This document shows positions 6,472-44,562 of a DNA stretch of 64,000 nt, in pieces (position 1 is the first letter of the stretch; the number at the start of each line of letters is the position of its first letter). Under the pieces are notes generated by a model. It was not told the DNA's origin, did not search any database, and was given only the letters and a program-made list of their open reading frames with translations. A program made the translations under genes and the position numbers. This stretch comes from Nocardiopsis sp. TSRI0078 (GTDB lineage Bacteria; Actinomycetota; Actinomycetes; Streptosporangiales; Streptosporangiaceae), in contig NZ_LWLB01000001.1 of assembly GCF_001905145.1 (NCBI RefSeq), positions 496,001-560,000 of the forward strand, written 5' to 3'.

Positions 6472-6490
6472 TTCGGCGTTCGGAAGGCGG

Positions 6491-27582: not shown

Positions 27583-27653
27583 GCGGATGTAGTTCAATGG
27601 TAGAACTTCAGCTTCCCAAGCTGATAACGCGGGTTCGATTCCCGTCATCCGCT
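27583..27653 (+). tRNA. tRNA-Gly (anticodon CCC)
   Basis: Complete cloverleaf without encoded CCA: acceptor GCGGATG/CATCCGC, D arm GTTC/GAAC, anticodon arm TCAGC-TTCCCAA-GCTGA, T arm with TTCGATT loop. Its last 21 nt are the first part of the 146-bp repeat bounding the island, which left the gene intact. Confidence 0.96.
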
Positions 27654-27778
27654 CCGTTCGAAAGACGGCCCCTGGCCTGCGAGGATCGCTCGCACGCCAG
27701 GGGCCGTCTTCGCGTTGGGGGTGCGCCAGCGGGTGCACGGGACTCCGGATGACGCGCGCGTCTCCCGTCATACACCCC
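27633..27778 (+). repeat. Left island boundary repeat (attL-like, tRNA-Gly 3' end)
   Basis: 146 bp matching 44417-44562 with 4 mismatches and no gaps; the first 75 bp (tRNA 3' end and most of the terminator) are identical and the mismatches are all in the distal half. This is the pattern left by site-specific integration into a tRNA 3' end. Confidence 0.9.
27662..27710 (+). terminator. Terminator of tRNA-Gly
   Basis: 15-bp perfect outer stem AAGACGGCCCCTGGC / GCCAGGGGCCGTCTT with an inner TGCGA/CTCGC-type stem, 8 nt after the tRNA. It is inside the repeated attachment segment. Confidence 0.85.
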
Positions 27779-29526: not shown

Positions 29527-30570
29527 CTACGGCTTCATGCCTATCTGAAGTCCGTGCTCGTACGGTAGTCCAGACCAGGAACGGGTCCGGGCGAACCCTG
29601 CTTCCTCCAACCAGCGCAGGTAGTCGGCAGCCGGGTAGGCCATCCCCTCGCCGCTCGCCAGGACGTTCAGGTACAGCGACAACCGCGCCGAGATCACGCC
29701 TGCGGTCTCGTCGTCCGTCGCGTTGTAGCCGTAGAGCACCACACTGCCGCCCGAGGGCAGGGCATCGAAGGCCTTGGCCAGCAAGGCGCGGATCCGCTCC
29801 TCGGAGAAGACCTCGAGGACGTGGCTGAAGAGGATGGCGTCATATCCTCCGGGCAGGTCCGACCCGAAGAGGTCTCCGGGGTGGAAGGCCATCCTGTCCG
29901 CGACCCCCTCCGGGAGGTCTTCCCGTGCCTGCCTGAGCACACTCGGCAGATCGAATACTCCGGCCACGGCGTCCGGATAACGCTCCAGGAAACGGATCGC
30001 CGTCGTCCCCGCACCGCCGCCCACATCGAGAAGCTTCCGGACGCCAGACAGTGCGGAGCTCTCAATCAGACTGTCCATCGAGCGGAGTGTGAAGGCGGAC
30101 ATGGCAGTGTGGAACACCGCCTCCGTTTCGGGATCCTCCGAGAGCCGCTCGTACAGTGAACCGCTGGTTCCGCCGTACGCAGCCAGGGCGGCCTCATTGG
30201 TGCCCTGGCTCAGCCCAGCGGTCATGTGGGCGAACGCCGGGTAGTAGATTCGCTGCCATCCGATGAGAATATGACGCCAGCTGTCCGGAGCGGCGGACGC
30301 CAGGTTATCCTGGGCGAACTCCGAGTTCCGGTAACGACCGCCCACCCGTTCCACCAGCTCGGTCGAGCACAGCGCGAACATCAGGATACGCAGTTTGTGG
30401 CGGGGTATACCGACGAACCGCTGGACGTCGTCCGCTGTCGCGTCCGGGCTCTTGGCGAGAAAGTCGAACACGCCGAGTTCGAGCCCGCTCACAACAGCAT
30501 TGAATAGAGCCGGACCATTGGCGATAAGCTGGAACCGTTCGGCGACGCGGTCGTTCCTGTTATCGGACAT
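29527..30570 (-). CDS. SAM-dependent methyltransferase (O-methyltransferase family) of the RiPP cluster
   Basis: 347 aa: a winged-helix dimerisation domain (about 1-100), then a Rossmann methyltransferase domain with DVGGGAGT (182-189) and the acidic residue of FDLPSVL. This is the plant-COMT/DnrK-like family, which mostly methylates phenolic hydroxyls. It is last gene of the leftward operon after the ligase (73-bp gap); AAGGAAGG precedes the ATG. A resorcinol hydroxyl or ring carbon of the dihydroxyphenylglycine unit is a sensible acceptor, by inference. The usual catalytic His is not evident: the matching stretch reads FSHVLEVFSEE. Confidence 0.87.
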   Translation of the reverse strand: MSDNRNDRVAERFQLIANGPALFNAVVSGLELGVFDFLAKSPDATADDVQRFVGIPRHKLRILMFALCSTELVERVGGRYRNSEFAQDNLASAAPDSWRHILIGWQRIYYPAFAHMTAGLSQGTNEAALAAYGGTSGSLYERLSEDPETEAVFHTAMSAFTLRSMDSLIESSALSGVRKLLDVGGGAGTTAIRFLERYPDAVAGVFDLPSVLRQAREDLPEGVADRMAFHPGDLFGSDLPGGYDAILFSHVLEVFSEERIRALLAKAFDALPSGGSVVLYGYNATDDETAGVISARLSLYLNVLASGEGMAYPAADYLRWLEEAGFARTRSWSGLPYEHGLQIGMKP

Positions 30571-30643
30571 GGATCGCCTTCCTTTTGCGATGTGTGGTGC
30601 GGAACAGAGGTGATTGGTTCGGCCCCTGCTGATCGGATGGGGA

Positions 30644-31960
30644 TCACCACGCCGCGAACAGGTGGGTCACCCGCTCCCGTATCTCCTGCGCCCGCTCGAC
30701 ATCCTCGGCGACGACGCAGTATGTGACGTCGCGGTCCACGGGGTGCACGTCATTGGCGATGACGACCCCTGTCCGACTGCCCGGGTCGTAGTGGAGGTGG
30801 TGATCGCGCAACAACGCGACAGCCCCGGTGACCGAGGGAACCCGCAGCCCGACGACCTCCATGAGGGTCCTGTGGCCCGGATAGGCGTCCCCCACGATCC
30901 GCCGCCCGACGCTCGCGTAGATGTGGGTGGACCCTGTGACCCTGCCGTTGGCCTCCGTGAAGAGCGTGCGTCCCTCCGGGGTGATGATCGCGTCCATGCT
31001 CACGAAGCCGCGGTACCCGATGCCCCGGAGCAAGTCGCTCATGCGCCGCGCATCGGAGACCAGCCGGTCGCGTATCGACGAGTCCAGGGTGCGGATCGGA
31101 AGCACCTGGCCGACGGGGGACGGCGCGTAGAGGAGCTCCCCTTCCCCGGTCAGCTCCACGCAGGAGTCGCTGAGCAGGAACTCCGCGAATACCGATGCGG
31201 AGTCAGGGTGGTAGCGCTCGACGACCAGTCTGTGGCGCCCACCGGTCGTCAACCGGTTCCACTCCCGGGCGAAATGTTCCTCGACGGAAGGCGCGTCGGG
31301 CAGGACCAGGGTCTTCGGCGCGCCCCGGGACATGATCCCCTCCTTTTGAGTGAGGATCTCGTTGCCCTTGCTCGCTTGCCGGAACTCGTGTTTGGTCATG
31401 ACCGGGTGCCCCGAGGCGAAAAGCCTGAGCGCCTCGTTCCCGGCAGCCTCTGGAGTCGAGCACACGGCCCCGTCCGCGACGGGGACGCCTGCGCCGGCCG
31501 CCAGCGCCCTGAACGCGGCCTTGCTGTTGACCAGGGCACCACCGCCCTGCCGGATGAAGTCCCCTCCCGCCACCGAGACCCCGACACCCAGGTCGGCGGC
31601 GAGTTCAGCGACCACGGGGTCGGGGTAAAGCATCACGACCTCGTCAACGGAGCGTTCCGCGAGCAGCCGCCCGAGTTCCGAGCGCAGAGAGGTGGCGGCG
31701 AGACGGATCGGCGTCAGTGCCTCGTAGGGCGCCCCGGAACCTGGAGGGATCACCGTGCGCAGTGTGCGCGGGTCCACCCCGGTGAGCGAGGTCACGTATT
31801 CCACGAATCCGGAAGAGGGCGGAGCCGGTAACAGTAGGACGTCTCCGTCCCGGGCCAGGAAGTGGACGCGCTGGGCCGACCAGCACGCGGTCACCTCACG
31901 CTCAACCCCGGACTCTTCCACTTCCTCGGTGAAGTCGTTCCCGATCAGGAGACGAGGCAT
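30644..31960 (-). CDS. ATP-grasp peptide ligase, PGM1 (pheganomycin) type
   Basis: 438 aa. Layout matches PGM1: a pre-ATP-grasp domain (about 1-140), an ATP-grasp domain with SKAAFRALAAGAGVPVADG, VVERY (246-250) and metal-binding SMDAI with TEANGR (Glu337, Asn339), and a C-terminal part (about 363-430; HRTLMEVVGLRVPSVTGAVA) characteristic of PGM1-like ligases. Known PGM1 joins a guanidino-arylacetic acid to the N terminus of ribosomally derived peptides, using ATP and forming an acyl phosphate. Here the nearby Dpg and amidinotransferase genes would supply that acid and the precursor at 35422-35667 the peptide. The ribosome-binding site is weak. Confidence 0.87.
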   Translation of the reverse strand: MPRLLIGNDFTEEVEESGVEREVTACWSAQRVHFLARDGDVLLLPAPPSSGFVEYVTSLTGVDPRTLRTVIPPGSGAPYEALTPIRLAATSLRSELGRLLAERSVDEVVMLYPDPVVAELAADLGVGVSVAGGDFIRQGGGALVNSKAAFRALAAGAGVPVADGAVCSTPEAAGNEALRLFASGHPVMTKHEFRQASKGNEILTQKEGIMSRGAPKTLVLPDAPSVEEHFAREWNRLTTGGRHRLVVERYHPDSASVFAEFLLSDSCVELTGEGELLYAPSPVGQVLPIRTLDSSIRDRLVSDARRMSDLLRGIGYRGFVSMDAIITPEGRTLFTEANGRVTGSTHIYASVGRRIVGDAYPGHRTLMEVVGLRVPSVTGAVALLRDHHLHYDPGSRTGVVIANDVHPVDRDVTYCVVAEDVERAQEIRERVTHLFAAW

Positions 31961-31996
31961 TCGATCGTCCGTTCTGTGTTGTAGGTGAAGACGGCA

Positions 31997-33232
31997 CTAC
32001 CTCGAGTCCGACACCGCCTCTACCCGCTCCTCGGCTCTGAGCCACCGTGAGCAGCACATTGCGACGAAGCATGCGACGAGAGCGCACACCGAGGGGATCA
32101 AGAGCGCGTGAGTGGGAGACAGGAAGTCGGTGACCATTCCGGCCCCCCAACCGCCCAGCGCCACCCCGATGGCCATGCTCGTGGTCTCGATGCTGAACGC
32201 CTCGGTGAGCAAACGGGGCGGCAGAAGGCGCTCCAGAAGAACGGCCCCGGAGATGGCGGCGGGAGCGACGGCCAATCCCGCGACGAAGGTGGCCGCTGCC
32301 AGGGTCCACACACCGCCCGCGAGCGCAAGGGCACCGAGCCCCAGAGCCTGGGCCGCGAGCGCACGAATCCACAAGGTGTGCGGCGGCAGTCGCCAGGACC
32401 GGTTTCCGTACCACAACCCACCGATGATGCTGCCCACGGCCAGGGCGGTCAGGAGCGGGCCGGCCAGGGCCGTGGTCCCGACCTCCTCTGCCCGAGCGAC
32501 CAGGGAGAGGTCGATCACCCCAATGATCGCCCCCGCGAACATCATCACCACCGCGATGACAAGCATCCCCGGCACCGCCAGGGCGGAGCCACCACCGCCC
32601 CGCACGCGGTTGGCGGGTGGCGCGGTCCCACGTTGCAGCGCCAAGGCAACGGCGCCACCCGTGGTCATCACCAGGCAGGCGGACAGGCCCGCGAGGTAGT
32701 GGACGGAAGTCGCCAACGCAGTGACGATGATCGGGCCCGAGATGAACGTGACCTCGTCGAGGATCGCCTCCAGGGAAAACGCCCTCTGGAGCCTTTCCTT
32801 CTTCGCTCCAGGGTCATCGCGCTCAAGGACGTACGCCCACCGGGTGCGCACCATCGTTCCCGTCGAAGGACGCGACGCTCCGGTGATCAGGCTCACGGCA
32901 CAGAGCATGGCCACACTCGCCCCCGAGTCAGCTGCGACCATCAGAGCGGCAAGGCTGAGCCCGTGCAGGATCGAGAGGACCAGGAGAATTCGGTGCTGAC
33001 CGTACTGGTCCACGAGGCGTCCGGCGATGGGCGCACCGGCCGCGTAACCCACCATGGCCATCGCCGCGACTGTGCCCGCAGCCGTATATGAGCCGGTCAG
33101 GGTGGAGATGAGGATGATGATGCCCAGCCCGAGCATGGGAACTGGGAGGCGTCCCACGAAGGCCGCGAGACTGAACGCGGCGGTTCCGTGTACCTGGTAC
33201 AGGGAACCGTACCGACGGATCATTGATGTCAT
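31997..33232 (-). CDS. Major facilitator superfamily exporter of the RiPP cluster
   Basis: 411 aa with about twelve hydrophobic segments and the MFS loop GRLVDQYGQHRILLV between helices 2 and 3. The ATG overlaps the TfuA stop (ATGA), so it belongs to the modification operon. It resembles drug:proton antiporters, and export or self-resistance for the product is the likely role. Longer open frames upstream read TfuA out of frame. Confidence 0.88.
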   Translation of the reverse strand: MTSMIRRYGSLYQVHGTAAFSLAAFVGRLPVPMLGLGIIILISTLTGSYTAAGTVAAMAMVGYAAGAPIAGRLVDQYGQHRILLVLSILHGLSLAALMVAADSGASVAMLCAVSLITGASRPSTGTMVRTRWAYVLERDDPGAKKERLQRAFSLEAILDEVTFISGPIIVTALATSVHYLAGLSACLVMTTGGAVALALQRGTAPPANRVRGGGGSALAVPGMLVIAVVMMFAGAIIGVIDLSLVARAEEVGTTALAGPLLTALAVGSIIGGLWYGNRSWRLPPHTLWIRALAAQALGLGALALAGGVWTLAAATFVAGLAVAPAAISGAVLLERLLPPRLLTEAFSIETTSMAIGVALGGWGAGMVTDFLSPTHALLIPSVCALVACFVAMCCSRWLRAEERVEAVSDSR

Positions 33233-33888
33233 ACTTTTCCGGATCTCGTGTGCTGGTGAACGACCTGAAGAAGCCGGAGGGCGTCCTCCCTCTTGACCTC
33301 GGGCGCGTCGGTCGCGAAGTACTTCTCGATGGCCTCGCCCGCGCTGGCCCCGATGTCCCCCTTGGCCACAGTCAGCGCGTTGCCGACGGTCCGGCGGGGG
33401 AAGTGCAGGGACTTCGCCGCTTCCAGGAAGAGCTCTGCGGCCCCGGCCTCGATCATGCCCTCCTCGACGCCCCGCCGTACGGCGAAGCGGAGGTCGACCA
33501 TGGGCCTGGACAGAGCACGTAGGCTGGTGGGGTCGAAGACGATCGCGACCTCGTCGTCGGCCTCGATCTCGCCCGAGGCGTACGCTTCGTAGACGTGTCC
33601 CACCCCCCTCATCCCGAAGGCCGCGCACTCCGCGGCCCGCAGCGCACCCATGCTCGACGAGCCGAAGGTGGGGATACCCGCGTCCACCGCCCTCAGGACC
33701 TCCTTCGGCGAGATGGACAAGCTGTCGAGGAACCGCCCGTCGACGATGCCGATGGCCGAAGGCGGGACCTCTCGGGCCAGCAGCGCGTCGATGTCCCCCC
33801 GCGCGATGGGCGGAAGGTACTCGGCATCAAGGATGCGAGCGGCCGACTCGTGATCGAGGCTGGGCCCAAGGAAGATCACGGGACGCAT
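33229..33888 (-). CDS. TfuA-like protein, partner of YcaO
   Basis: 219 aa, starting MRPVIFLGPSLDH; GGGGAG lies 3 nt upstream. The family core is evident: VDGRFLDSLSISPKEVLRAV, GIPTFGSSSMGALRAAE and HVYEAYASGEIEADDEVAI. TfuA proteins encoded beside YcaO are associated with backbone thioamide formation (archaeal methyl-CoM reductase; thioamitide and thiovarsolin pathways), probably by delivering or releasing sulfur. It lies 56 bp after YcaO and is coupled to the exporter gene. Confidence 0.92.
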   Translation of the reverse strand: MRPVIFLGPSLDHESAARILDAEYLPPIARGDIDALLAREVPPSAIGIVDGRFLDSLSISPKEVLRAVDAGIPTFGSSSMGALRAAECAAFGMRGVGHVYEAYASGEIEADDEVAIVFDPTSLRALSRPMVDLRFAVRRGVEEGMIEAGAAELFLEAAKSLHFPRRTVGNALTVAKGDIGASAGEAIEKYFATDAPEVKREDALRLLQVVHQHTRSGKV

Positions 33889-33944
33889 GGGCTCCCCTTT
33901 CTCATCGCGTTGGCTAGGACTCACAGATAAGGTGATGGTGCCGT

Positions 33945-35279
33945 TCAGGGAGCGATCGGTGCTTCGGCCAGGGACCGGACCGCTTCGCTCCAGACCCGCT
34001 GAGCCCGGCTGCCAATACGGCAGTAGTCCGTGGCCCATGATTCGAGGATGGGGCAGATCACCCTGACCACGCTGACGGGGATCTGCGGAGGCGACAGGTC
34101 GACTACGACCACCTGCCCCGCCCCCGCCGCGCGCAGCCGTCCGAGGAGGAGATCGAGGTCGGCCCGGACATCACCGCTCGGGTGGTGGGGGACCTGGTCG
34201 AACCGGACCGTGTGCGAAGCCGACTTCCAAGCCCACGAACTGGTGTCTACCGAGGCCGAGCGGCGGACGTGCAGCTCGTACTTGGAAACGTCCGCACCGG
34301 GCAGGCTGATGTCCTCCCGGAGCGCTTGGACGTCGACGGCCCGCCCCTGAGCGCACTCGCTCAAAGCCCGCGCCACCGCAACCTCGGCGTTGGGGTGCGT
34401 GCCGTAGCCGCCGTGACCCTGGGAGGTTCCGTCACCGATGTCCTCGCTCGTGGCAGCGAAGAAGCTCGGGATACCGAGATCGGACGTGATGTCGAGGAGA
34501 CGCACCTCCACCCCGGCCTTGTCGAACTTCTCCAACATGTACTGCGCGGCAGATGGGAGGGAACCCGGTTCGACGTGGGGATGGCGGCCGCGCAGCTCAT
34601 CCACGACCGAGAAGGCCGATGCGCCCAGGTGCCCGTCTTGTTCGAGGATCTGCGGCAGGTAGTTGCTCACCAGTTCGGCCAGGGTCATCGAGTCCCGTTC
34701 GACCAGCTCGCACAGCGCGTGGCAGACGGCCTCCTCCAGGCTGTTCCCCGAGGCCAAGCCGTTGGTTGTGGTGATTCGGTAGCACGGCTGCTCATGCAGG
34801 CGCGCCTGGTACACGGCGCCGTCCTGGGGGACGAGCACGGGCTCTTCGTTGAGGAGGTCCCACCCCCTGACCCAGGAGATCGGACCGTCGTCGCGGTAGT
34901 CGCGGGCCAGTTCCAGGTTGATCTCGTCCGGACGGAGTACCGTCTCACCCACGGAGACGAGCTCATCCAGGGAGGCGACGAGGTCGGGCCTTACCGGCAG
35001 CCAGGCGGAGTAGCGTTCGATCGCCTCCATCACGGCGCTGACCTTGGCGTCGATCGGCCGGAACCCCTTGCCTCCGTAGACGGAGATGCTGTCGTTGGAA
35101 CGAGGGACGATCGCGCTGTAGACCGGAACGCCGACGTAGTCCAGGCCGGTGATGTCTGCCAGTCTCGTGATTCCCACCCTGCGCAGGTGGGGGGAAACTC
35201 GATCCCAGGTCTCCTCGACGGTGATCTCCCTCTGCGTCCCCGACTCAATGGTCTTGGGGATGCTCGCACGCAGTTTCAA
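33945..35279 (-). CDS. YcaO-domain protein (predicted peptide thioamide synthase)
   Basis: 444 aa. YcaO ATP-binding motifs are complete: SAVMEAIERY (81-90), NSLEEAVCHALCELVERDS (179-197) and HPNAEVAVARALSECAQGR (295-313). YcaO enzymes activate a peptide amide oxygen with ATP; with TfuA the incoming nucleophile is sulfide, giving a thioamide, whereas azoline formation would need a Cys/Ser/Thr substrate and usually an E1-like partner, absent here. The only start available is TTG 35279, with no clear ribosome-binding site, so translation should be far weaker than that of the precursor gene just upstream. Confidence 0.92.
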   Translation of the reverse strand: MKLRASIPKTIESGTQREITVEETWDRVSPHLRRVGITRLADITGLDYVGVPVYSAIVPRSNDSISVYGGKGFRPIDAKVSAVMEAIERYSAWLPVRPDLVASLDELVSVGETVLRPDEINLELARDYRDDGPISWVRGWDLLNEEPVLVPQDGAVYQARLHEQPCYRITTTNGLASGNSLEEAVCHALCELVERDSMTLAELVSNYLPQILEQDGHLGASAFSVVDELRGRHPHVEPGSLPSAAQYMLEKFDKAGVEVRLLDITSDLGIPSFFAATSEDIGDGTSQGHGGYGTHPNAEVAVARALSECAQGRAVDVQALREDISLPGADVSKYELHVRRSASVDTSSWAWKSASHTVRFDQVPHHPSGDVRADLDLLLGRLRAAGAGQVVVVDLSPPQIPVSVVRVICPILESWATDYCRIGSRAQRVWSEAVRSLAEAPIAP

Positions 35280-35326
35280 TGAGGTCCCATCATCGTTGTG
35301 AAGGTTTGTACAGCGCTGCGATGTGC

Positions 35327-35357
35327 CCCAAGGACACGGTGTGTCCGTGCCCTTGGG
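35327..35357 (-). promoter_or_regulatory. Intercistronic hairpin between precursor and ycaO genes
   Basis: 13-bp stem with one mismatch (CCCAAGGACACGG / CCGTGCCCTTGGG), 5-nt loop, 65 bp after the precursor stop. Expected to work as a partial terminator so that precursor mRNA exceeds enzyme mRNA. Confidence 0.65.
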
Positions 35358-35421
35358 TTGTTTACCGCGTCACGGCACGGTGCGAGCCGTCTAGATCAGG
35401 GACACCGAACCAGGCTGGGTT

Positions 35422-35667
35422 TCACCTGACGGTCTGAGCCTTGGGCGCGGCGAAGAACGAGTCTCCCGCACCACGCACGGTCTGAGCCCTGGGCGCGGCG
35501 AAGAACGAGTCTCCCGCACCACGCACGGTCTGAGCCCTGGGCGCGGCGAAGAACGAGTCTCCCGCACCGACTCCCGACCTCCCCTCGAGGAAGGACTGGA
35601 GCTCCTCCGGGGCCAACTCGGCCAGCCGCGTCAATTCCTCGTGGCTCTGGGCGTTCACCTTGGTCAT
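35422..35667 (-). CDS. RiPP precursor peptide with three tandem core repeats
   Basis: 81 aa. The leader (1-33) is acidic and helix-prone (HEELTRLAELAPEELQSFL), ending EGRSGV. Then come three 16-residue units, GAGDSFFAAPRAQTVR (34-49, 50-65) and the same with APK (66-81); the gene stops at the last residue of unit 3. A consensus AAGGAGG lies 8 nt before the ATG. No Cys; Ser and Thr are present, so azoles are not excluded, but the YcaO/TfuA pair favours thioamides. Each unit probably yields one peptide after proteolysis. The Ala-Pro-Arg element recalls thiovarsolin precursors (from memory, to be checked). Confidence 0.88.
   Translation of the reverse strand: MTKVNAQSHEELTRLAELAPEELQSFLEGRSGVGAGDSFFAAPRAQTVRGAGDSFFAAPRAQTVRGAGDSFFAAPKAQTVR
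35425..35568 (-). repeat. Three 48-bp tandem repeats inside the precursor gene
   Basis: Units 35521-35568 and 35473-35520 are identical over 48 bp; 35425-35472 differs at 4 positions, one changing Arg to Lys. The identity points to recent duplication or homogenisation of the core. Confidence 0.95.
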
Positions 35668-36243
35668 CGATTCAACCTCCTTGAATTCCCCTGGCAGCAA
35701 GATCTGCCCAGGTAATGGTGGGTTCTCTCGGTTTCGGATGACGTACAGACAGCCGGTCAACGGGGATAATCGAGTCAGATGAATTCGGAGCCATCCTCCG
35801 AAGATTGAGTATCGAACTGCCGACTTCTCCCGTTGTGGTTTTGCTTTGGCCGGCGCAATTCGACTCCCGCGGGAGCACAAATATGGACGCTACACCGGCA
35901 CTGCGGAGGTGTCAATGGCCTGACTTCCACATGATTACCGCTCCGACCTGAGCATTCTCCGTAAAAATGCAGGTAATCGCGACCTACGGCGGCTTCAACC
36001 AGCCGGCCCTGCCCGAGCGACCAGATGGAACGGTGCGGCGCGTGTTAAAAACTTCCCCCACTGACCGGATCGGGCCATTGGTCATTCTTCATCGCCAGGA
36101 AAACGAGGGTTGACGCCTTCTGATAGCACTTGATACATTCACACCGATTCAGCAAAAATCGGACCCATGCGCATCTGCGCCTCAGTTTCAAACCCAGATG
36201 TGCCGCATATCCTATATTTTGAACCGATCGAGTTGGGGGACGA
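35668..36243. other. 576-bp divergent regulatory region of the RiPP cluster
   Basis: No gene supported. It is AT-richer than the rest and must hold the promoters for the leftward precursor operon and the rightward amidinotransferase gene. A TATATT at 36213-36218 could be a -10 for the latter, but no matching -35 was found. A short leftward frame here overlaps the amidinotransferase start and has no good start signal. Confidence 0.45.
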
Positions 36244-37392
36244 GTGAAGCTCAATAGCTTCGATGAATGGTCACCGCTCAAGGAAGTCGTTGTCGGTTCC
36301 GCTCTGAACTACACGTCCCACGAGCGGGAACTCTCCTTTGATCTCTTCTTTCATGAGCACATCACCAGGTCGGAGTGGTACTACCCGCGGCTGTCGGTGC
36401 ACACCAGCGACGAAGGCTCCCGCCGCCGCTCGACCCGGTCACCGATCAAGCAACGCTACGTTGAGGAGCTCAACGAGGACCTCGATGGGCTGGCCAAAAC
36501 CCTGGAGTCCTTGTCGGTGAGCGTTCGGCGCCCCATCGACCTTGACCCCTCCACCACGGAGGTGCGCACACCCGCATGGTCCGCGGCCGTGGTCCCGCCC
36601 CTCAACATCCGGGACAACACACTCATCCTGGGCGACGAGATCATCGAGACCCCGCCCATGGTGCGGTCCCGCTACTTCGAAACGCAGTTCCTCACCGGGA
36701 TCTTCGCGGACCACTTCGCCAGGGGTGCGCGCTGGACCGTGATGCCCAGGCCGCTCATGACGGACTCCTCCTTCGACCCGTCGTACGCCGAGAGCACCGC
36801 AGGCGGTCCGACCGAGCCCATCACCGACCCTGAGCCCTCCCACTACGACGTCGGCTTCGAGATGATGTTCGACGGCGCCCAGTGTCTGCGCCTGGGCAGG
36901 GATGTCATCGCCAACATCTCGACCACCAACCACGCGATGGCCGTCGACTGGCTCGAACGCCACTGTGAGGGCCGCTTCCGTTTCCACCGGGTGCACCGGT
37001 TGAGCGACAGCCACATCGATAGCATGGTTTTGGCGTTGCGGCCGGGAACGTTGCTGGTGCGGTCCCGAGAGGTGGTCGACTTCCTTCCGGAAGCGCTTCG
37101 GAAGTGGGACATGATCGTCGCCCCGCCGCCGAGCGAGAACAACTTCCCGTCCTACGAGGACGACGACCTCGTCCTCACCACGCCCTTCATCGACCTCAAC
37201 GTGTTCTCCGTGTCCCCGGACACCGTCCTGGTCAACGAGGCGTCCCCGGACCTGATCCGCACCCTGGAACGACACGGTTTCACGTGCGTCCCAGTCCGCC
37301 ACCGCCACCGGCGCCTCTTCGGCGGCGGATTCCACTGCTTCACACTGGACACGGTCCGCCAGGGCGGCCCGGAGGACTACCTCGAAGGCTGA
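36244..37392 (+). CDS. Amidinotransferase (arginine:glycine amidinotransferase family)
   Basis: 382 aa from GTG 36244 (GGGGGA upstream). Starts MKLNSFDEWSPLKEVVVGSA, as in AGAT-like enzymes. The catalytic triad can be placed: Asp210 in MMFDGAQCLRLG, His257 in SDSHIDSMVLALRPG, and nucleophile Cys365 in GGGFHCFTLDTVR. The family moves the amidino group of arginine through a Cys-linked intermediate to an amine. The expected acceptor is the alpha-amine of 3,5-dihydroxyphenylglycine made by the neighbouring genes, giving the guanidino acid that PGM1-type ligases use. It is divergent from the precursor operon. Confidence 0.9.
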   Translation: MKLNSFDEWSPLKEVVVGSALNYTSHERELSFDLFFHEHITRSEWYYPRLSVHTSDEGSRRRSTRSPIKQRYVEELNEDLDGLAKTLESLSVSVRRPIDLDPSTTEVRTPAWSAAVVPPLNIRDNTLILGDEIIETPPMVRSRYFETQFLTGIFADHFARGARWTVMPRPLMTDSSFDPSYAESTAGGPTEPITDPEPSHYDVGFEMMFDGAQCLRLGRDVIANISTTNHAMAVDWLERHCEGRFRFHRVHRLSDSHIDSMVLALRPGTLLVRSREVVDFLPEALRKWDMIVAPPPSENNFPSYEDDDLVLTTPFIDLNVFSVSPDTVLVNEASPDLIRTLERHGFTCVPVRHRHRRLFGGGFHCFTLDTVRQGGPEDYLEG

Positions 37393-37422
37393 CCGGCAGC
37401 CGGGGCGTACCGTGGCCGGCCG

Positions 37423-38250
37423 TCACTCACCCCACCAGTCGGGGGTGCGCTTCTCAGCGAAGGCACGCGGTCCCTCCTGTGCGTCTCGGCTGTGCATGCG
37501 TTTCTCCTCCCACACGTACCGGGTGGCAAACGCCTGCTCCAACGAGGCCGAGGCCGATTCGAGCGCAGCCTCCTTGATCGCCCGAACTGAGAGGGGTGCG
37601 CAGCGCAGGATGTCCTCCACCCACCTATTGACGCACTCGTCCAGTTCGTCTGGCGGCACTACGTCGTTGATGAGCCCGAGCCGGTGCGCCCGATCAGCAT
37701 CCAGGTTCCGCCCGGTCAGCAGATGGCCCATCGCCGTCCGGAAGGGCAACTGCCGTACAAGCCGGAACACGCCCCCCGCTCCCGGCACGAGGCCGTGCCG
37801 GGCCTCGGGTAGGCCGAACACCGCGTCTTCAGAAGCGACGACGATGTCACAGGTCAGCGCGAGCTCGAAGCCCCCGCCCAGGGCGTACCCCCGCACCCGG
37901 GCCACCAGGGGTTTGAACAATCGGAAGCGTTCCGTCAGGCGTGGCCATCCGGGCTGTCCCCGGCTGCCGAACGTGGTGGGTGAGGCATCACCCGCCGCTG
38001 TCAGCCGTGCTCGCTCCTTGAGGTCCTGTCCTACAGAGAAAGCTCGGTCGCCCGCGCCGGTGAGGACCCCGACCCAGACGTCATCGTCCTCCTCGAAGTC
38101 GTCCCACACCCGCGCCAATTCCTCGTGCATGCGCAGATCCATCGCGTTGAGAGTGTGGGGCCGATCTAGGGTTATGTACGCGACACGGCCACGCTTTTCA
38201 TATCTGATGCTCTTTTCCGGACTCGCGCTCTCCATGGATGATTCAGTCAT
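37423..38250 (-). CDS. dpgD: Enoyl-CoA hydratase/isomerase, DpgD-like
   Basis: 275 aa crotonase-fold protein. [19 protein letters not shown] near the start, the oxyanion-hole region [18 protein letters not shown] and the active-site loop [19 protein letters not shown] identify an enoyl-CoA hydratase. In Dpg clusters DpgD, with DpgB, helps dehydrate and aromatise the tetraketide made by DpgA. It is on the minus strand, 32 bp from the divergent dpgA. ATG 38250 was chosen; ATG 38235 is possible and neither has a ribosome-binding site, so a leaderless mRNA is conceivable. The dpgD name rests on context. Confidence 0.82.
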
Positions 38251-38282
38251 GAAAATGGATGCTACCACAAGGCGATGAACCG

Positions 38283-39371
38283 ATGACAAAAACCTTTGCG
38301 TCGACTCCGAAGTCAGATATCTCTACCGCACCAAAAATACTTTCCGTGGGGACGGCAACCCCATCGAACTCCTATACGCAGAAGGAGATCCTGGATCTGT
38401 TTCAGGTGGCGGACGAACGCATATCCGCCATCTTCCTTAATGGCGGAATCGAACGCAGAAGCCTCACCCTCCCCCCAATGACCCCGGGCGAGGGTTTCAC
38501 GGAGGAGACCCAGGGCGACCTGCTGAGGAAACACCTCGAAAGCGGAATCGAGATCGGCGGTGAATCGGTCCGTAGGTGCCTTGAGGGCATCGGTGCGACC
38601 GCGTCCGACATCGAATACTTGTGCTGTGTCTCCTCTACGGGGTTCATCACCCCCGGATTCAGCGCGCGCCTGATCGCTGAGCTCGGGATACCCGTGTCGG
38701 CCTCCCGGATCGACGTGGTGGGAATGGGGTGCAACGCCGGCCTCAACGCCCTGAACGCCGTGACGGGCTGGTCCCGGGCCAACCCGGGCGCACTCGCGAT
38801 CATGGTCTGCATCGAGGTGTGTTCGGCCGCCTACGTCTTTGACGGGACCATGCGCACGTCCGTGGTCAACAGCCTCTTCGGTGATGGTGCGGCGGCCATC
38901 GCGCTGGGGTCTGGACGGGACGGCGCCGAGGGCCCTGGGGTCCTGGACTTCGCCAGCGAGATCATTCCCTCCGCCGCCGAGGCGATGCGCTATGACTGGG
39001 ACGATTCCCAGGGGAAGTTCAGTTTCCACCTGGACCCCGATATCCCGTACGTCGTCGGTTCCCACGCACGGGAACCGGTGGGGAGGCTGCTCAACCGGGC
39101 CGGACTCCGGCGCTCGGACATTACGCACTGGATCGTGCACTCCGGAGGAAAGAAGGTCATCGACGCCCTGAGGGTGAATCTCGGCCTCACCCGCCACGAC
39201 CTGCGCCATACCACGGGGGTCCTTCGCGACCAGGGAAACCTTTCCAGTGGAGCCTTTCTCTTCTCCTATCAACGGCTTCTCGCGGAGGAAAATTTCAGGA
39301 CGGGGGATTACGGAGTGATGATGACGATGGGACCTGGTTCCACGGTTGAAACGGCCCTGCTGCGTTGGTAA
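38283..39371 (+). CDS. dpgA: Type III polyketide synthase, 3,5-dihydroxyphenylacetyl-CoA synthase
   Basis: 362 aa chalcone-synthase-fold enzyme that condenses four malonyl-CoA to the dihydroxyphenylacetyl skeleton. The catalytic triad is Cys150 in [16 protein letters not shown], His286 in WIVHSGGKK and Asn319 in [13 protein letters not shown]. The N terminus [20 protein letters not shown] and the MGCNAG active-site string agree with DpgA of glycopeptide-antibiotic clusters rather than with RppA or alkylresorcinol synthases. AAGG lies 9 nt before the ATG. It heads a five-gene rightward operon dpgA-dpgB-dpgC-aminotransferase-methyltransferase. Confidence 0.93.
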
Positions 39372-39400
39372 GGAAAATCCTTCCGAGGAAGGCGAATAGC

Positions 39401-40117
39401 ATGAGGAACGAGCACGACATCGAATGGGACACCGTCTTCACCGCGGACATCGACGGAAACCGCCCGATCGGCGAACTCGCGGCGTCGGTGAACGATCTGT
39501 GCGGCCGAGTGGAGGGCCGCCCGGGTTCCGTGATCCTGCTGAGACTGGCCGAGGGCACACCAGACCGGAGGTCGTGGCCCGGTGCCGTGGACGTCAGGGA
39601 CGTCAGCCGGTGGGAGAAGGCGATCCGGCGGCTGGAACGCTCGGAGGCCGTCAGCATCGTGGTGGGCCAGGGCACGTGCTGCGGACCCGCACTCGACGTA
39701 CTCCTGGTGGGCGACTACCGGATCGCGAGCGCGGACATGACACTGCTGCTGCCCGTCAACGACGACCAGTTCTGGCCCGGTATGGCGTTGCACCGACTCG
39801 TGCGGGAGATCGGAGTGGCGCGCGCCCGTCAGCTGGTGTTGTGGGGTGACCGCCTCACGGCCGCCGCCGCACTGGAGAACAGCCTGGTCAACGAGGTATC
39901 CACCGATGTGGAGGATACGGTGCGTTCCGCCGTGGTTTTCCTCCGCCGGACCTCTGGCACCGATCTCGCCGTACGGCGCCAACTGCTCTTCGAGGCGGCG
40001 TCGAACGACTTCGAGGATTCCCTCGGTGTCCACCTGGCGGCGTGTGACAGGGAGTTGCGTCGGCTGCGGGCCCAGCCGCGGTCAGGGGTGGACGCACGTG
40101 TGGAGGCGCGTCGATGA
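39401..40117 (+). CDS. dpgB: DpgB-like enoyl-CoA hydratase homologue
   Basis: 238 aa, divergent crotonase fold. It lacks a textbook enoyl-CoA hydratase motif but keeps GQGTCCGPALDVLLVGDYRI at the place of the oxyanion-hole segment and LHRLVREIGVARARQLVLWG afterwards. DpgB increases DpgA activity and assists dehydration. GAGGAAGG precedes ATG 39401, and the stop overlaps the dpgC start. Assigned by fold, size and position between dpgA and dpgC. Confidence 0.87.
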   Translation: MRNEHDIEWDTVFTADIDGNRPIGELAASVNDLCGRVEGRPGSVILLRLAEGTPDRRSWPGAVDVRDVSRWEKAIRRLERSEAVSIVVGQGTCCGPALDVLLVGDYRIASADMTLLLPVNDDQFWPGMALHRLVREIGVARARQLVLWGDRLTAAAALENSLVNEVSTDVEDTVRSAVVFLRRTSGTDLAVRRQLLFEAASNDFEDSLGVHLAACDRELRRLRAQPRSGVDARVEARR

Positions 40118-41484
40118 GCGGGCACGGGACAGGCCCGGTGGCGCGGTGGCACCTGCGCACACCGAAGCTCAGCGGACGGCTCGGGGAGGACGCGGACCTG
40201 CTCCGCCGCCACACGGAGGAGGGGGAAGAGCTCTTGGCGGAACTACCCCCGCGTCCGGAACGGGACGCGGGTGAGACGGCCATCGCCGCAACCATCCACG
40301 GGGGCGGCCGCGAGATCCGCGGCGCGTTCCTCGACCTGCACGCCGAGCCGGTGTTCGCCACGATCTGTGACGGAAACCCCCGACCGCGCCTGTCCGACAT
40401 CGCCTTCGAGGCGGCCGACCGCTTTCCCGGCCTAGCACCCACCCGGAAGCAGATGGTCGAGGAGCGAACGCGCCTCCAGGCCCACAAGGAGGGGCGGGAG
40501 ATCGACCAGGGAGTCCTCTTCCGAGGGCTGCTCCGTGCTCCCAGCGCTGGGAGCCGTCTGGTCGACGCAATGCTCCGCCCCACCGCCCGGGCAAAGGACC
40601 TCCTGTCCGTGTTCGCGGTGAAGGGACGCGTCGAACTCCCCACGGTGGTCCTGGAACGCAGCGGGGCGGCGGCCCACCTCACCGTCACAAACACGCGGTG
40701 CCTCAACGCCGAGGACGACCAGCTGATCACCGACATGGAAACCGCGGTGGACCTTGTGTTCCTGGAGGAACGCGTGCACGTCGGTGTCGTCCGGGGAGGC
40801 CTGATGACGCACCCCCGCTACCTGGGCAGGAGGGTCTTCAGCGCGGGTATCAACCTCAAGGAGTTGCGCAACGGGGACATCTCCTTCGTGGATTTCCTGT
40901 TGGGCCGGGAACTGGGCTATCTGCACAAGATCCTCCGAGGGGTGGTTCCGGACACGGACAGGCCGAGCCTGTCCGCGCGGGCAGTCCACAAGCCCTGGAT
41001 CGCGGCCGTGGACTCCTTCGCCATCGGCGGCGGTATGCAACTGCTCTTCCTGTTCGACAGGGTGATCGCGGAGAAGGACGCGTTCTTCAGCCTTCCGGCC
41101 GCCCGTGAGGGAATCGTTCCGGGGGCGGCGAACCTCAGACTGGGCCGCTTCGTGGGGAGTCGGGAGGCCCGCCGGATCATCCTCGCCGGGCATCGCCTCC
41201 GCGCGACCGACCCGGAGGCCCGGCTCCTCTGCGACGAAGTCGTGGAATCCGAGGAGATGGACACCGCCGTGGAGCGGGCGATCCAGGACCTCGACAACCC
41301 GGCCGTCGTGGACAACCGCAGAATGATCGCGCTCGCCGAGGAGCCGCTGGACCACTTCCGCGCCTACATGGCCGAGTTCTCCCGGGTGCAGGCCGAGCGC
41401 CTCTACGCCGCAGACGTCCTGGAGAAGGTCGCCACCCCGCCGGGCACGCGGCGTCGACAGGAGGCGAAGGAGAGCGGATGCTGA
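40114..41484 (+). CDS. dpgC: 3,5-dihydroxyphenylacetyl-CoA 1,2-dioxygenase
   Basis: 456 aa. Cofactor-free oxygenase of the crotonase superfamily: a helical N-terminal domain (about 1-200), then the crotonase core with RRVFSAGINLKELRNGDISF, the oxyanion Gly run in SFAIGGGMQLLFLFDRVIAE and PAAREGIVPGAANLRLGRFV. DpgC turns 3,5-dihydroxyphenylacetyl-CoA into 3,5-dihydroxyphenylglyoxylate with O2, releasing CoA. GGAGG lies 7 nt upstream of the ATG; it overlaps dpgB by 4 bp and the aminotransferase by 7 bp. Its presence is the strongest mark that the product is dihydroxyphenylglycine rather than a simple resorcinol. Confidence 0.94.
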   Translation: MSGHGTGPVARWHLRTPKLSGRLGEDADLLRRHTEEGEELLAELPPRPERDAGETAIAATIHGGGREIRGAFLDLHAEPVFATICDGNPRPRLSDIAFEAADRFPGLAPTRKQMVEERTRLQAHKEGREIDQGVLFRGLLRAPSAGSRLVDAMLRPTARAKDLLSVFAVKGRVELPTVVLERSGAAAHLTVTNTRCLNAEDDQLITDMETAVDLVFLEERVHVGVVRGGLMTHPRYLGRRVFSAGINLKELRNGDISFVDFLLGRELGYLHKILRGVVPDTDRPSLSARAVHKPWIAAVDSFAIGGGMQLLFLFDRVIAEKDAFFSLPAAREGIVPGAANLRLGRFVGSREARRIILAGHRLRATDPEARLLCDEVVESEEMDTAVERAIQDLDNPAVVDNRRMIALAEEPLDHFRAYMAEFSRVQAERLYAADVLEKVATPPGTRRRQEAKESGC

Positions 41485-42788
41485 GCATCGACCACCTGCA
41501 CGGCTCCCTCACCGACCCGGTACTGGACTCCGTCAACTTCCTCAACGAGGTGATGGGACGCTACCCTGACGCGATCTCCTTCGCGCCTGGAGCTCCCAGA
41601 CCGGCCCCTTTCGACGACTCGGTCGCCGCCGGGCACATCCGACGCTACCTCCGCCACTTGCGCGAGGCGCGCGGGGCGGACCCCGAGGAGGCGGAACGGC
41701 TCATCTCCCAGTACGGCCCCGCCCGGGGGCTGATCAACGACCTCGTCAGCCAGGCGCTGCGCACCGACCACGGCATCGATGTCGCTCCGGAGTCCGTCGT
41801 CATCACTGTGGGAGCGCAGGAGGGCATGTTCGTGACGCTGCGCGCCCTCTTCAGCCCGGGTGACGTCCTGGCGGTGGCCGAACCTTGCTTCGTCGGGATC
41901 CTGGGGGCCGCGCGACTGCTCGACATCGAGGTGGTTCCGGTAAGTGAGACCGATGACGGAATCGACCTGGACCAACTCGCCGGAGCGTGCCGGGACGCCA
42001 GAGCGCGGGGGCAGCGCGTACGGGCGCTCTATGTGGCTCCCGACCACTCCAACCCGTCGGGGACCCTCCTCGACCTACGATGCCGACGAGAGCTCCTCGC
42101 CTTGGCCCACCGGGAGGACCTGCTGCTGTTGGAGGACAACGCCTACGCGTTCACCGCGGCCCCCGACCAAGAGCTCCCCCCGCTCAAGGCACTGGACGGC
42201 GGCGGCCGGGTGGTCCTCATCGGCACCTTCGCCAAAGTGTGCCTGCCGGGCGCGCGTGTGGGATACGTGGTCGCGGGCCAGGACGTGCGACACGGTGACG
42301 GACGGTCGGCACCGCTCGCGGAGCTCATCGCTGCGGTCAAGAGCATGGTCACGGTCAACACGTCGCCCGTGTCCCAGGCGGTCATCGGCGGCATGCTGCT
42401 GGAGCGTGGAGGGTCGATCAGCGCCCTGGGAGAGGCGAGGGCGGCCGAGTACCGGCAGAATCTGCGGCATCTGCTGCAGGCACTCGACCAACGGCTGTCT
42501 CCCGGAAGCACCGGAATTCCCGGTGTGAGCTGGAACCGCCCGCGAGGAGGGTTCTTCGTCCGGGTCCGCGTCCCGGTCAGAGCGGACGCGGAGCTACTGG
42601 AGCTGTCCGCGGCGGAGTTCGGTGTGCTGTGGACACCCATGACGCACTTCCACGTCGGTGACGGGGGGACCAACGAACTCCGTCTGTCGTGCAGTTACCT
42701 CAGCCACGCGCACATCGACGAGGGAGTCGAACGCCTGGCGGCCCTTCTCGACCACGTCGTTTGCGGAGCACGGGAGAGGAACGCATGA
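41478..42788 (+). CDS. PLP aminotransferase, dihydroxyphenylglycine-forming (HpgT/PgaT-like)
   Basis: 436 aa, class I fold. PLP Lys253 in IGTFAKVCLPGARVGYV, Asp220 and Tyr223 in LLLLEDNAYAF, and the Asn-Pro turn in APDHSNPSGTLLDL. In glycopeptide clusters the corresponding enzyme converts 3,5-dihydroxyphenylglyoxylate to the amino acid, usually with tyrosine as donor. AAGGAG lies 5 nt upstream of the ATG. It follows dpgC directly and is coupled to the next methyltransferase gene, completing the Dpg pathway. Confidence 0.9.
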   Translation: MLSIDHLHGSLTDPVLDSVNFLNEVMGRYPDAISFAPGAPRPAPFDDSVAAGHIRRYLRHLREARGADPEEAERLISQYGPARGLINDLVSQALRTDHGIDVAPESVVITVGAQEGMFVTLRALFSPGDVLAVAEPCFVGILGAARLLDIEVVPVSETDDGIDLDQLAGACRDARARGQRVRALYVAPDHSNPSGTLLDLRCRRELLALAHREDLLLLEDNAYAFTAAPDQELPPLKALDGGGRVVLIGTFAKVCLPGARVGYVVAGQDVRHGDGRSAPLAELIAAVKSMVTVNTSPVSQAVIGGMLLERGGSISALGEARAAEYRQNLRHLLQALDQRLSPGSTGIPGVSWNRPRGGFFVRVRVPVRADAELLELSAAEFGVLWTPMTHFHVGDGGTNELRLSCSYLSHAHIDEGVERLAALLDHVVCGARERNA

Positions 42789-43819
42789 AGCCCCACACCG
42801 GCCTTGAGGAGGAACTGCACGCCTTGGCAGACCTGGCCACACCCATGGCGATCAGGGTCGCTGCCACACTGCGCCTCGCCGACCACATCGGGGAGGGGAC
42901 CGACACCACAGAACAAATCGCCGACGCCACCAGTACGGATTCGGGAACACTCGACCGCCTCCTTCGGCACCTGTGCTCCGTCGGCGTGCTTCGCCGGTTA
43001 GAACCGTGTCGATACGCGATCACAGAGAAGGGAGACTGCCTACGGGACGACCACCCCTCGGGGCTACGCGCACGGCTCGACACCGAGGGGGCGGAGGGGC
43101 ACGCGGACCTGTCCCTCCTGGAACTGGGCCACTCGGTCAGGACGGGGGAACCGGCCTTCGACAAACGCTACGGTGCCCCGTTTTGGGAGCACCTGGCCGA
43201 GGACCCGGAGCTGGCGGATGGCTTCCACCAGCGCATGGGCGCGGCGGTGCAGAGGGAGGCCGAGGCGATCGCCACCTCCTACGACTGGAGTTCCCTCGAC
43301 CGTGTCGTCGATGTCGGAGGGGGAGACGGCACCCTCCTCACAGCGCTCCTTCGAGCCCACCCTCGGTTGAGGGGAACAGTGCTCGACCTCCCCGGAACAG
43401 CGGAACGAGCCCGGAACGTGCTGGCAGGCGCTGGGGTGGCCGACCGGAGCGAGTTCGTGGCGGGAAGCTTCTTCGACCCCCTGCCGACGGGGGCCGACGG
43501 GTACGTGCTCTCAGCCATAATCCACAACTGGGGTGACACTGAGAGCGTGACCTTGCTCCGACGCTGCGCCGAGGCCGCCGGAGAGTGTGGTCGTGTCTTT
43601 GTCATCGAGCGGATCGGCCCAGACGGAACTGCGGCGAGCACCGGTACAGATCTGCGGATGATCGCTTACTTCGGGGGGCGTGAGAGGGACGAGGTGGAGA
43701 TCAGTGATCTCGCCGACCTGTCTGGGCTCCGCAAGGTCGCACGGCATCCGGCCAGTGCGTGCACGATCCTGGAGTTCGCTCCGAACCGGCCACGTCCCAA
43801 CCATGTCGGCGACAAGTGA
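42785..43819 (+). CDS. SAM-dependent methyltransferase (O-methyltransferase family), second in cluster
   Basis: 344 aa. Winged-helix dimer domain, then DVGGGDGTLL (176-185) and VLDLPGTAERAR for SAM binding. SAIIHNWGD has the His-Asn-Trp site seen in active O-methyltransferases of this family, with His as base. The start ATG overlaps the aminotransferase stop (ATGA). It is only distantly similar to the methyltransferase at the other end of the cluster, so the two probably act on different positions. The ring hydroxyls or C4 of the Dpg unit are candidate sites; pheganomycin and resorcinomycin carry carbon substituents there. Confidence 0.87.
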   Translation: MKPHTGLEEELHALADLATPMAIRVAATLRLADHIGEGTDTTEQIADATSTDSGTLDRLLRHLCSVGVLRRLEPCRYAITEKGDCLRDDHPSGLRARLDTEGAEGHADLSLLELGHSVRTGEPAFDKRYGAPFWEHLAEDPELADGFHQRMGAAVQREAEAIATSYDWSSLDRVVDVGGGDGTLLTALLRAHPRLRGTVLDLPGTAERARNVLAGAGVADRSEFVAGSFFDPLPTGADGYVLSAIIHNWGDTESVTLLRRCAEAAGECGRVFVIERIGPDGTAASTGTDLRMIAYFGGRERDEVEISDLADLSGLRKVARHPASACTILEFAPNRPRPNHVGDK

Positions 43820-43932: not shown

Positions 43933-44121
43933 GTGGGGCGTCGTGGATACTCGACCGGGTTCCGCCACAAGGTGTTGGACTTGGTCGAGGCAGGGTACAG
44001 CGTCGCCGCAGTGGCACGCGATCTGGACATTAGCACCGAAACGATCTACGCCTGGTGGCGCCAGGAGCACATCGACTGCAGCTTGGCTCCGTGGTGGCTC
44101 TGCTGTTCAGGGATCCCGTAG
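43933..44121 (+). pseudogene. IS3-family transposase OrfA, truncated
   Basis: The first 48 codons give the helix-turn-helix of IS3 OrfA (STGFRHKVLDLVEAGYSVAA, then VARDLDISTETIYAWWRQEH), after which homology stops at HID and unrelated sequence runs to a stop. A normal OrfA has about 90-100 residues with a leucine-zipper half, missing here. It lies between the RiPP cluster and the right island boundary. Confidence 0.8.
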
Positions 44122-44416: not shown

Positions 44417-44562
44417 GTTCGATTCCCGTCATCCGCTCCGTTCGAAAGACGGCCCCTGGCCTGCGAGGATCGCTCGCACGCCAGGGGCCGTTTTCGCGTT
44501 GGGGGTGCGCCAGCGGGTGCACGGGACCCCGGATGACGCGCGCGGCTCCCGTCGTACACCCC
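44417..44562 (+). repeat. Right island boundary repeat (attR-like)
   Basis: Second copy of 27633-27778. It starts in the middle of the tRNA-Gly T arm (GTTCGATTCCCGTCATCCGC), so it is only the last 21 nt of the tRNA plus terminator and flank; upstream sequence does not continue the tRNA. Confidence 0.9.

Follow-up and report, generated by a model that had tools for sequence, protein, structure and literature searches.

Thiovarsolins, described in 2019, are N-acetylated APR or GPR tripeptides whose Pro-Arg linkage is a thioamide, and the genes varA, varY and varT suffice for the formation of thiovarsolin B (PMC6511847). Since deletion of varO still yielded thiovarsolins B and D, VarO is not required for this class. 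According to the same report, clusters of this network in Streptomyces and Nocardiopsis additionally contain genes for two proteins with homologues in pheganomycin biosynthesis, the amidinotransferase VarS and the ATP-grasp ligase VarL, and these clusters adjoin non-ribosomal peptide synthetase (NRPS) or polyketide synthase (PKS) genes, with N. baichengensis mentioned by name; the PKS neighbour in Nocardiopsis may well be DpgA. The authors proposed that thiovarsolins may be shunt products and suggested host peptidases for their release. Here we analyse a related cluster of Nocardiopsis sp. TSRI0078, at positions 29527-43819 of a 64,000-nucleotide stretch of contig NZ_LWLB01000001.1 (positions 496,001 to 560,000; hereafter the window), in which a thiovarsolin-type precursor gene and its thioamidation genes lie beside a complete gene set for 3,5-dihydroxyphenylglycine (Dpg). 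We consider it probable, from sequence comparison, that this locus encodes a single pathway for a ribosomally synthesized and post-translationally modified peptide (RiPP), in which thioamidated APR or APK peptides would be capped with a (methylated) guanidino-dihydroxyphenylacetyl group.

The linked, complete Dpg module, and hence the probable identity of the cap, is what is likely to be new here; capping hybrids are otherwise a known theme. Branch-6 ATP-grasps have been described in 2022 beside YcaO/TfuA genes, and also beside type III PKS and amidinotransferase genes, one Streptomyces viridosporus locus containing a PGM1 gene (PMC8939145), and in 2026 a homologue of the Pgm1 ligase was reported for 47 biarylitide clusters (PMC13417212). 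PGM1-type ligases also serve the ketomemicins, pseudopeptides made independently of the ribosome and of NRPS (PMC11943689), and the main text of a 2021 survey of thioamidated RiPP clusters (PMC8120280) has no mention of ATP-grasp, amidinotransferase or dihydroxyphenyl. The initial annotation of this locus knew of no natural product joining thioamidation, PGM1-type ligation and Dpg. The combination of YcaO-TfuA, ligase and amidinotransferase had been published in 2019 (PMC6511847) and the linked Dpg module goes beyond it; given this report and PMC8939145, the statement that no known cluster joins these elements was dropped. In the main text of open-licence PMC papers, no thiovarsolin-type cluster with a linked Dpg pathway was found.

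Gene content and precursor peptide

The locus comprises 13 genes; every reading frame is uninterrupted and shows the G+C distribution over codon positions that real genes have:

29527..30570, minus strand: MT1, predicted S-adenosylmethionine (SAM) methyltransferase of the O-methyltransferase family (PF00891, E 4.9e-34)
30644..31960, minus strand: PGM1/VarL-like ATP-grasp peptide ligase (PF18604 and PF18105 (PGM1_C); PGM1 structure 3wvq, E 3.2e-107)
about 31997..33232, minus strand: VarP-like major facilitator superfamily (MFS) transporter, predicted export (PF07690; 52% identical to the S. varsoviensis and 62% to the N. halophila copy)
33229..33888, minus strand: VarT-like TfuA protein (PF07812, E 2.1e-39; NF033432, 215.6 bits, under the cut-off of 235.2)
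33945..35279, minus strand: VarY-like YcaO protein, TTG start (PF02624, E 1.6e-75; top NCBIfam match TIGR03266, under cut-off)
35422..35667, minus strand: precursor peptide of 81 amino acids, leader plus three 16-residue core repeats (NF033878, E 7.8e-37)
36244..37392, plus strand: VarS-like amidinotransferase (StrB1 1bwd, E 1.9e-48; SxtG and AGAT also match)
37423..38250, minus strand: DpgD enoyl-CoA hydratase, reversed inside the plus unit (NF042430, E 8.1e-142, 471 bits, cut-off 400)
38259..39371 (alternative ATG at 38283), plus strand: DpgA type III PKS, 3,5-dihydroxyphenylacetyl-CoA synthase (NF042429, E 4e-178, over cut-off)
39365..40117, plus strand: DpgB (NF042431, E 2.4e-65, over cut-off)
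40114..41484, plus strand: DpgC dioxygenase (NF042432, E 7.3e-169, over cut-off)
41478..42788, plus strand: pyridoxal phosphate-dependent aminotransferase, class I/II (PF00155, E 4.6e-32)
42785..43819, plus strand: MT2, second PF00891 methyltransferase (E 2e-40)

The family searches agree with the gene list of the initial annotation, and its layout of two divergent units holds overall, except that dpgD sits on the minus strand within the plus unit. The minus unit reads precursor, YcaO, TfuA, MFS transporter, ligase and MT1, and the plus unit reads amidinotransferase, the reversed dpgD, DpgA, DpgB, DpgC, aminotransferase and MT2. A plus-strand open reading frame at 37412-38278, overlapping dpgD, was ruled out as a gene by its non-coding codon pattern.

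Judged by its sequence, the precursor is a thiovarsolin-family peptide, which settles the class of the cluster: it matches the NCBIfam model NF033878 ("thiovarsolin family RiPP") with 125.4 bits against a cut-off of 35. Its repeats lie at residues 34, 50 and 66 and end in AAPRAQTVR, AAPRAQTVR and AAPKAQTVR (cores APR, APR and APK); the VarA precursor of Streptomyces varsoviensis has five such repeats. The AAPRAQTVR region put forward in the initial annotation is thus present twice, the third repeat being AAPKAQTVR, and by analogy with the thiovarsolins the core would more likely be APR/APK than the longer segment. The segment AQ(T/N)VR is conserved across the precursors of the window, Nocardiopsis halophila and S. 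varsoviensis. When NF033878 was run over 200 genomes of the family, the precursor of N. halophila (74 bits, over the cut-off) was found besides that of the window, together with three matches of 23-25 bits, under the cut-off, only one of which (L007) was weakly matched by the window precursor (E 6e-6).

The YcaO/TfuA pair is, by homology, of the thioamidating rather than the azoline type. The YcaO protein is 70-73% identical to the two thiovarsolin-type copies and 53-61% to the YcaO proteins of seven other YcaO-TfuA loci; the YcaO and TfuA genes of the window are adjacent, and their products are 70% and 62% identical to those of S. varsoviensis (VarY/VarT). The model TIGR03266 (McrA-glycine thioamidation) scored 270.9 bits and SagD 154.9 bits, both under their cut-offs. 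A YcaO lying outside the TfuA-associated thioamidating group was one way in which the initial annotation foresaw it could fail; the adjoining TfuA gene, the identities given above and the higher score of TIGR03266 place the protein within that group. Thioamidation by this pair is suggested by homology with VarY and VarT, for which gene deletions have been published. As tblastn gave no match to the heme-oxygenase-like VarO in the window at E<=1, no arginine desaturation would be expected.

Three further YcaO genes are present in the genome (contigs C35 and C37; L001, L003 and L004), with at most 31% identity to the cluster YcaO in the matched parts and no TfuA match at E<=1e-3 within their 4-kb loci. 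Three YcaO proteins besides that of the window were found in 394 genomes of the class at E<=1e-50 (53-61%). A second family, likewise sampled with 394 genomes, gave five at E<=1e-120 (53-58%); G612 occurs in both sets. The seven YcaO-TfuA loci obtained (16-20 kb) were rejected as further examples of the cluster, as they have no close ligase, amidinotransferase or Dpg matches; in one of them, L111, the ligase had a single weak match (107 residues, 39%, E 6e-7).

The second placement in which the initial annotation could have failed was that of the ligase, which lies inside the PGM1 group: it carries PreAtp-grasp and PGM1_C domains and aligns over its full length with structure 3wvq, the next ATP-grasp peptide ligase following at E 1.1e-27. 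Residues E336, N338, R340, K147 and K190 are invariant in an alignment of nine rows. PGM1 and the pheganomycin pathway are said to have been described by Noike in 2015. A graspetide assignment was rejected, the sole ATP-grasp protein found among the 13 being of the PGM1 type. The amidinotransferase had no Pfam match at E<=0.001, and it aligns almost end to end with StrB1, SxtG and AGAT, with motifs beginning at residues 210, 257 and 363 for the Asp, His and Cys that we take to be catalytic. It is 82% identical to the N. halophila and 76% to the S. varsoviensis protein, and the three YcaO-linked amidinotransferases group together with a support of 94/95 in a trimmed tree (98/95 untrimmed).

Dpg synthesis is assigned by equivalog-level homology, since DpgA, DpgB, DpgC and DpgD all score above their curated NCBIfam equivalog cut-offs. 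The aminotransferase reached no NCBIfam equivalog cut-off and is 52-69% identical to aminotransferases encoded beside other Dpg genes.

Relatives of the cluster and lineage of its Dpg genes

The closest relative is that of N. halophila DSM 44494 (L095, L010, L030/L038), which has all 13 genes at 57-82% identity, with gene order and relative strands kept within each contig, the reversed dpgD included. Unlike that of the window, this cluster is split between three contigs, C19, C20 and C21. One of them has MT2 and the aminotransferase terminus at its edge, the next carries the genes from aminotransferase to precursor, and the third those from YcaO to MT1. The C19/C20 break falls inside the aminotransferase gene and C20 ends inside the precursor, which is visible only to the start of its second repeat. 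The var cluster of S. varsoviensis (PMC6511847; L039) shares with the window the repeat precursor (APR/GPR cores), YcaO, TfuA, MFS transporter, ligase and divergent amidinotransferase in the same layout (48-76% identity), and differs from it in having VarO. Within 10 kb past its ligase and about 14 kb past its amidinotransferase, covered by 21 kb centred on the ligase locus and an overlapping stretch of 20 kb, there is no match to DpgA-D, the aminotransferase, MT1 or MT2. Only one close DpgA (64%) is present in this genome; it is encoded on a different contig, where an NRPS gene with adenylation, condensation and thioesterase domains lies upstream of it and of the accompanying DpgB, DpgC and aminotransferase genes.

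A scan of one genome per species in 84,980 species, using a single degenerate pattern from the ligase alignment, gave 42 ligase loci, a lower bound, with flanks of up to 10 kb, several of them cut by contig ends. Close YcaO and TfuA genes stood beside the ligase in two of the 42, those of N. halophila and S. varsoviensis, and the ligases of these two and of the window form one clade (support 100/99). A survey of the family (341 genomes) gave ligase matches at E<=1e-20 in 18, the window's own genome included; among the other 17, N. halophila had 59% identity and the next 44%.

Five of the 42 loci (L040, L044, L045, L046 and L060) contain DpgA without a close YcaO. Like the window they have DpgA, DpgB, DpgC, an aminotransferase and the ligase, four of the five also with the amidinotransferase and MT1; unlike it, they have no close YcaO/TfuA (at most 10 kb on each side; L046 is a 9.8-kb contig). 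In addition, L045 carries a cytochrome P450 gene and L044 a B12-radical SAM gene. The Dpg, ligase and amidinotransferase genes of Micromonospora okii (L045, 11324-17652) and Sinosporangium siamense (L040, 11375-18010) run on into further genes, whose starts presumably resemble a carbamoyltransferase, a PIG-L-type deacetylase and a DegT-type aminotransferase; these loci may make a different guanidino-Dpg compound.

The lineage of the Dpg proteins bears on whether the two units belong together. DpgC was found in 12 of the 394 class genomes, in 14 places including the window; nine of the 13 others have an adenylation (A) or condensation (C) domain match in the stretch examined and four an amidinotransferase of at least 72% identity, one having both and one neither. 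In a concatenated DpgABC tree of 20 rows, from which L137 and L138 were excluded and to which L092, L094 and the earlier ligase loci were added, the ten ligase- or amidinotransferase-linked rows (the window included) split from nine NRPS-labelled rows with a support of 100/99, and none of 500 label shuffles gave a value as low. The window stands with N. halophila among the former. The labels are to be read with their basis: eight of the nine NRPS rows have an A- or C-domain match in their stretch, the A-domain match being an AMP-binding match and alone no proof of an NRPS, and the label of L094 rests on context, as no A- or C-domain match occurs within its 18 kb. One gene of L094 presumably encodes a protein resembling hydroxymandelate synthase. 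L131, a member of neither group, was placed on the NRPS side. Of the rows linked to capping genes, L046 has the ligase without an amidinotransferase in its 9.8-kb contig, and L133 an amidinotransferase without the ligase in 20 kb. By this tree, the Dpg proteins of the window derive from the capping lineage.

In L133 (G436), positions 8409-18861 carry DpgABCD, the aminotransferase and MT1 along with a pair of amidinotransferases (76% and 60%), and its 20 kb gave no match to a PGM1-like ligase. In L137 (G646), at 6443-16956, the neighbours of DpgC are an adenylation-domain match and a pair of amidinotransferases (72% and 60%), so that NRPS and amidinotransferase genes may be mixed at this locus.

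No condensation domain was found in the genome of TSRI0078 at E<=1e-10 (the Escherichia coli and Bacillus subtilis controls were positive), nor any A- or C-domain match in the window, and only one DpgA in the genome exceeds the cut-off. With no condensation domain and a single DpgA, no ordinary NRPS sink for Dpg is seen in the genome, and a role of Dpg in an NRPS product was discarded, stand-alone adenylation-thiolation proteins not having been searched for.

MT1 relatives (54-64%) occur in six of the 42 ligase loci, each with a close amidinotransferase; they are found in six of the seven ligase loci with an amidinotransferase of at least 75% identity and in none of the other 35 (Fisher p 1.3e-6, the related loci not being independent). 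Because its relatives occur beside such amidinotransferases, MT1 would act on the Dpg ring, the tie to the amidinotransferase being good but not strict. MT2 has a 65% copy near the aminotransferase end of the cluster in N. halophila. In two ligase-bearing genomes without a YcaO beside the ligase, no copy as close as this was found, the best being 39% on another contig in G346 and none at E<=1e-30 in G342. This absence, together with the AQ(T/N)VR segment kept in the three precursors, speaks for a sub-case of the product proposed here, of pheganomycin-like length, in which the capped peptide would be longer than a tripeptide (AAPR, AAPRAQTVR or several cores together) or the peptide would bear the methyl groups; the characterised relative, however, gives APR/GPR tripeptides (PMC6511847), and we regard this longer form as rather unlikely.

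A rival reading has two separate products: a thiovarsolin-like peptide made by the precursor, YcaO and TfuA, and a resorcinomycin-like pseudopeptide in which guanidino-Dpg is ligated to a free amino acid or to an unrelated short peptide. Resorcinomycin is a precedent for a guanidino-Dpg pseudopeptide. The units are divergent, and L040, L044, L045 and L060 combine Dpg genes, ligase and amidinotransferase without a close YcaO in the flanks examined. PGM1-type ligases also serve the ketomemicins (PMC11943689), and thiovarsolin B needs only varA, varY and varT, with varL and varS dispensable (PMC6511847). Yet in both the window and N. halophila the ligase gene belongs to the unit of YcaO, TfuA and the MFS transporter, apart from the Dpg genes; the three YcaO-linked clusters have ligases of a single clade; and the single MFS gene and the boundaries of the island described below fit one pathway. 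We accordingly hold separate products to be improbable. That the halves belong together is argued by the synteny with N. halophila, the YcaO-linked clades, the capping lineage of the Dpg proteins, the lack of any NRPS use seen and the island.

The tRNA-Gly island

Both units lie between the copies of a 146-bp direct repeat, which bound an island of 16.8 kb consisting mainly of the 13 genes; the initial annotation did not include this island:

27583..27655, plus strand: tRNA-Gly (ccc), island insertion site (ARAGORN)
27633..27778, plus strand: 146-bp direct repeat, left copy, covering the tRNA-Gly 3' end and sequence downstream (blastn, 142/146 identical to the right copy)
27830..28255, minus strand: transposase remnant (integrase core, rve_3) at the left island end (PF13683, E 2.3e-9)
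43933..44121, plus strand: transposase remnant (HTH_Tnp_1) at the right island end (PF01527, E 4.8e-9)
44417..44562, plus strand: 146-bp direct repeat, right copy (blastn)

An acquired island that is silent or decaying, and makes nothing, would agree with the transposase remnants at both ends and with the absence of a close ligase copy in the 39 other genomes of the genus examined, where two matches of 25% and 42% were found. Against such decay stand 13 of 13 intact frames of coding-type G+C pattern, the presence of all catalytic motifs looked for and the gene set retained by N. halophila, and we give it little credence.

The tRNA-Gly(ccc) gene, which stands next to dcd, appears to be a hotspot of integration for the genus: in at least 14 of the 39 other genomes a second copy of its 3' end was seen by eye 2.5-16.4 kb downstream on the same contig. 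To the right of the island, the minus strand encodes a VirD4/TraG-like coupling protein (52555-56673; NF045973, 150.9 bits, under the cut-off of 250; PF02534, over cut-off) and an AAA ATPase (59177-60958), possibly a conjugation-type gene block beside the island.

Proposed pathway and comparison with known systems

The sequence shows which families the genes belong to, that their frames are intact, that gene set and order are conserved, and that they have a common ancestry and lie on a single island; from this we infer the following scheme, in which each reaction, the order of the steps, the position of the thioamide, the cut site and the positions of the methyl groups are predictions. YcaO and TfuA would thioamidate the three cores on the leader-bearing precursor at the Pro-Arg (or Pro-Lys) bond, by analogy with thiovarsolin. 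DpgA-D and the aminotransferase, converting the arylglyoxylate to the arylglycine, would build Dpg, which MT1, and perhaps also MT2, would methylate, and the amidinotransferase would convert the Dpg amine to a guanidine. Amidinotransferases of this family take arginine as donor. Host peptidases would then release thioamide-protected APR/APK (or AAPR) pieces, to whose N-terminus the PGM1-like ligase would join the guanidino-arylacetic acid at the expense of ATP, and the MFS protein would export the product. One joint pathway, as foreseen in the initial annotation, is well supported by synteny, phylogeny, the lack of any condensation domain found in the genome and the island bounds; what changes is the core, for which APR/APK is likelier than AAPRAQTVR.

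Several observations weigh against the single capped product. The ligase and the amidinotransferase are without a demonstrated role for a thiovarsolin-type precursor in the S. varsoviensis system, where deletion of varL, varS or varP had no effect (PMC6511847), and the lack of Dpg genes near that cluster means that the link is not general in the family. The native S. varsoviensis strain was reported to give no further thiovarsolin-related metabolite detected (PMC6511847), which, given its unlinked Dpg set, counts against supply in trans under the authors' conditions. No protease is encoded in the cluster, so peptide release must rely on host peptidases, and the divergent units could be expressed apart. 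The amidinotransferase clade comprises 18 rows, the window included, of which 12 (S. varsoviensis and 11 others) have no Dpg genes in the locus examined, and for this reason the clade was dropped as proof of substrate. In the 394-genome class sample, MT1 accompanies just two of four amidinotransferases (72-76%) and none of nine other Dpg loci, and the adjacency of the three N. halophila contigs is itself deduced.

As corollaries of the capped product proposed here, thiovarsolins would be uncapped, N-acetylated shunt forms, and in S. varsoviensis the products of varS and varL would have nothing to act on, the cloned fragment bringing no linked source of Dpg; the absence of linked Dpg genes in this organism could explain why the two seem idle. 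The [M+H]+ computed for Ac-Ala-Pro-thio-Arg, 401.1966, fits the 401.1968 reported for thiovarsolin B (PMC6511847), which indicates that the mass model used for predictions is sound. More tentatively, and with the balance close to even, we propose that Dpg-bearing thiovarsolin-type clusters make a new class of short thioamidated peptides with a methylated guanidino-(3,5-dihydroxyphenyl)acetyl N-terminus (for example, cap plus one methyl on Ala-Pro-thio-Arg, calculated [M+H]+ 580.2660), and that the S. varsoviensis ligase and amidinotransferase act only on Dpg from unlinked NRPS-associated genes, the published thiovarsolins being shunt forms.

The 2019 study left open why these clusters keep a seemingly idle pheganomycin-type ligase and amidinotransferase, and whether thiovarsolins are shunt products; a cluster with the full cap supply beside the same genes makes this question directly testable. 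If true, the proposal adds a class of capped, thioamidated peptides, with thioamidation and PGM1 capping on one peptide, and supports the view of PGM1 ligases as capping modules movable across RiPP classes.

Compared with known systems, the window resembles the pheganomycin pathway, as summarised in PMC8939145, in its PGM1-like ligase, amidinotransferase and type III PKS, and in a ribosomal peptide for which a Dpg-type guanidino cap is predicted here. The pheganomycin pathway has NRPS, radical SAM and C-methyltransferase genes, whereas the window has no NRPS or radical SAM gene (no radical SAM family match was found among its 13 proteins) and has YcaO/TfuA and a thiovarsolin precursor instead. 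The branch-6 ATP-grasp loci (PMC8939145) and the biarylitide-Pgm1 hybrids (PMC13417212) likewise combine ATP-grasp ligases with other RiPP enzymes, and differ from the window in their precursors and in the modifications of the core.

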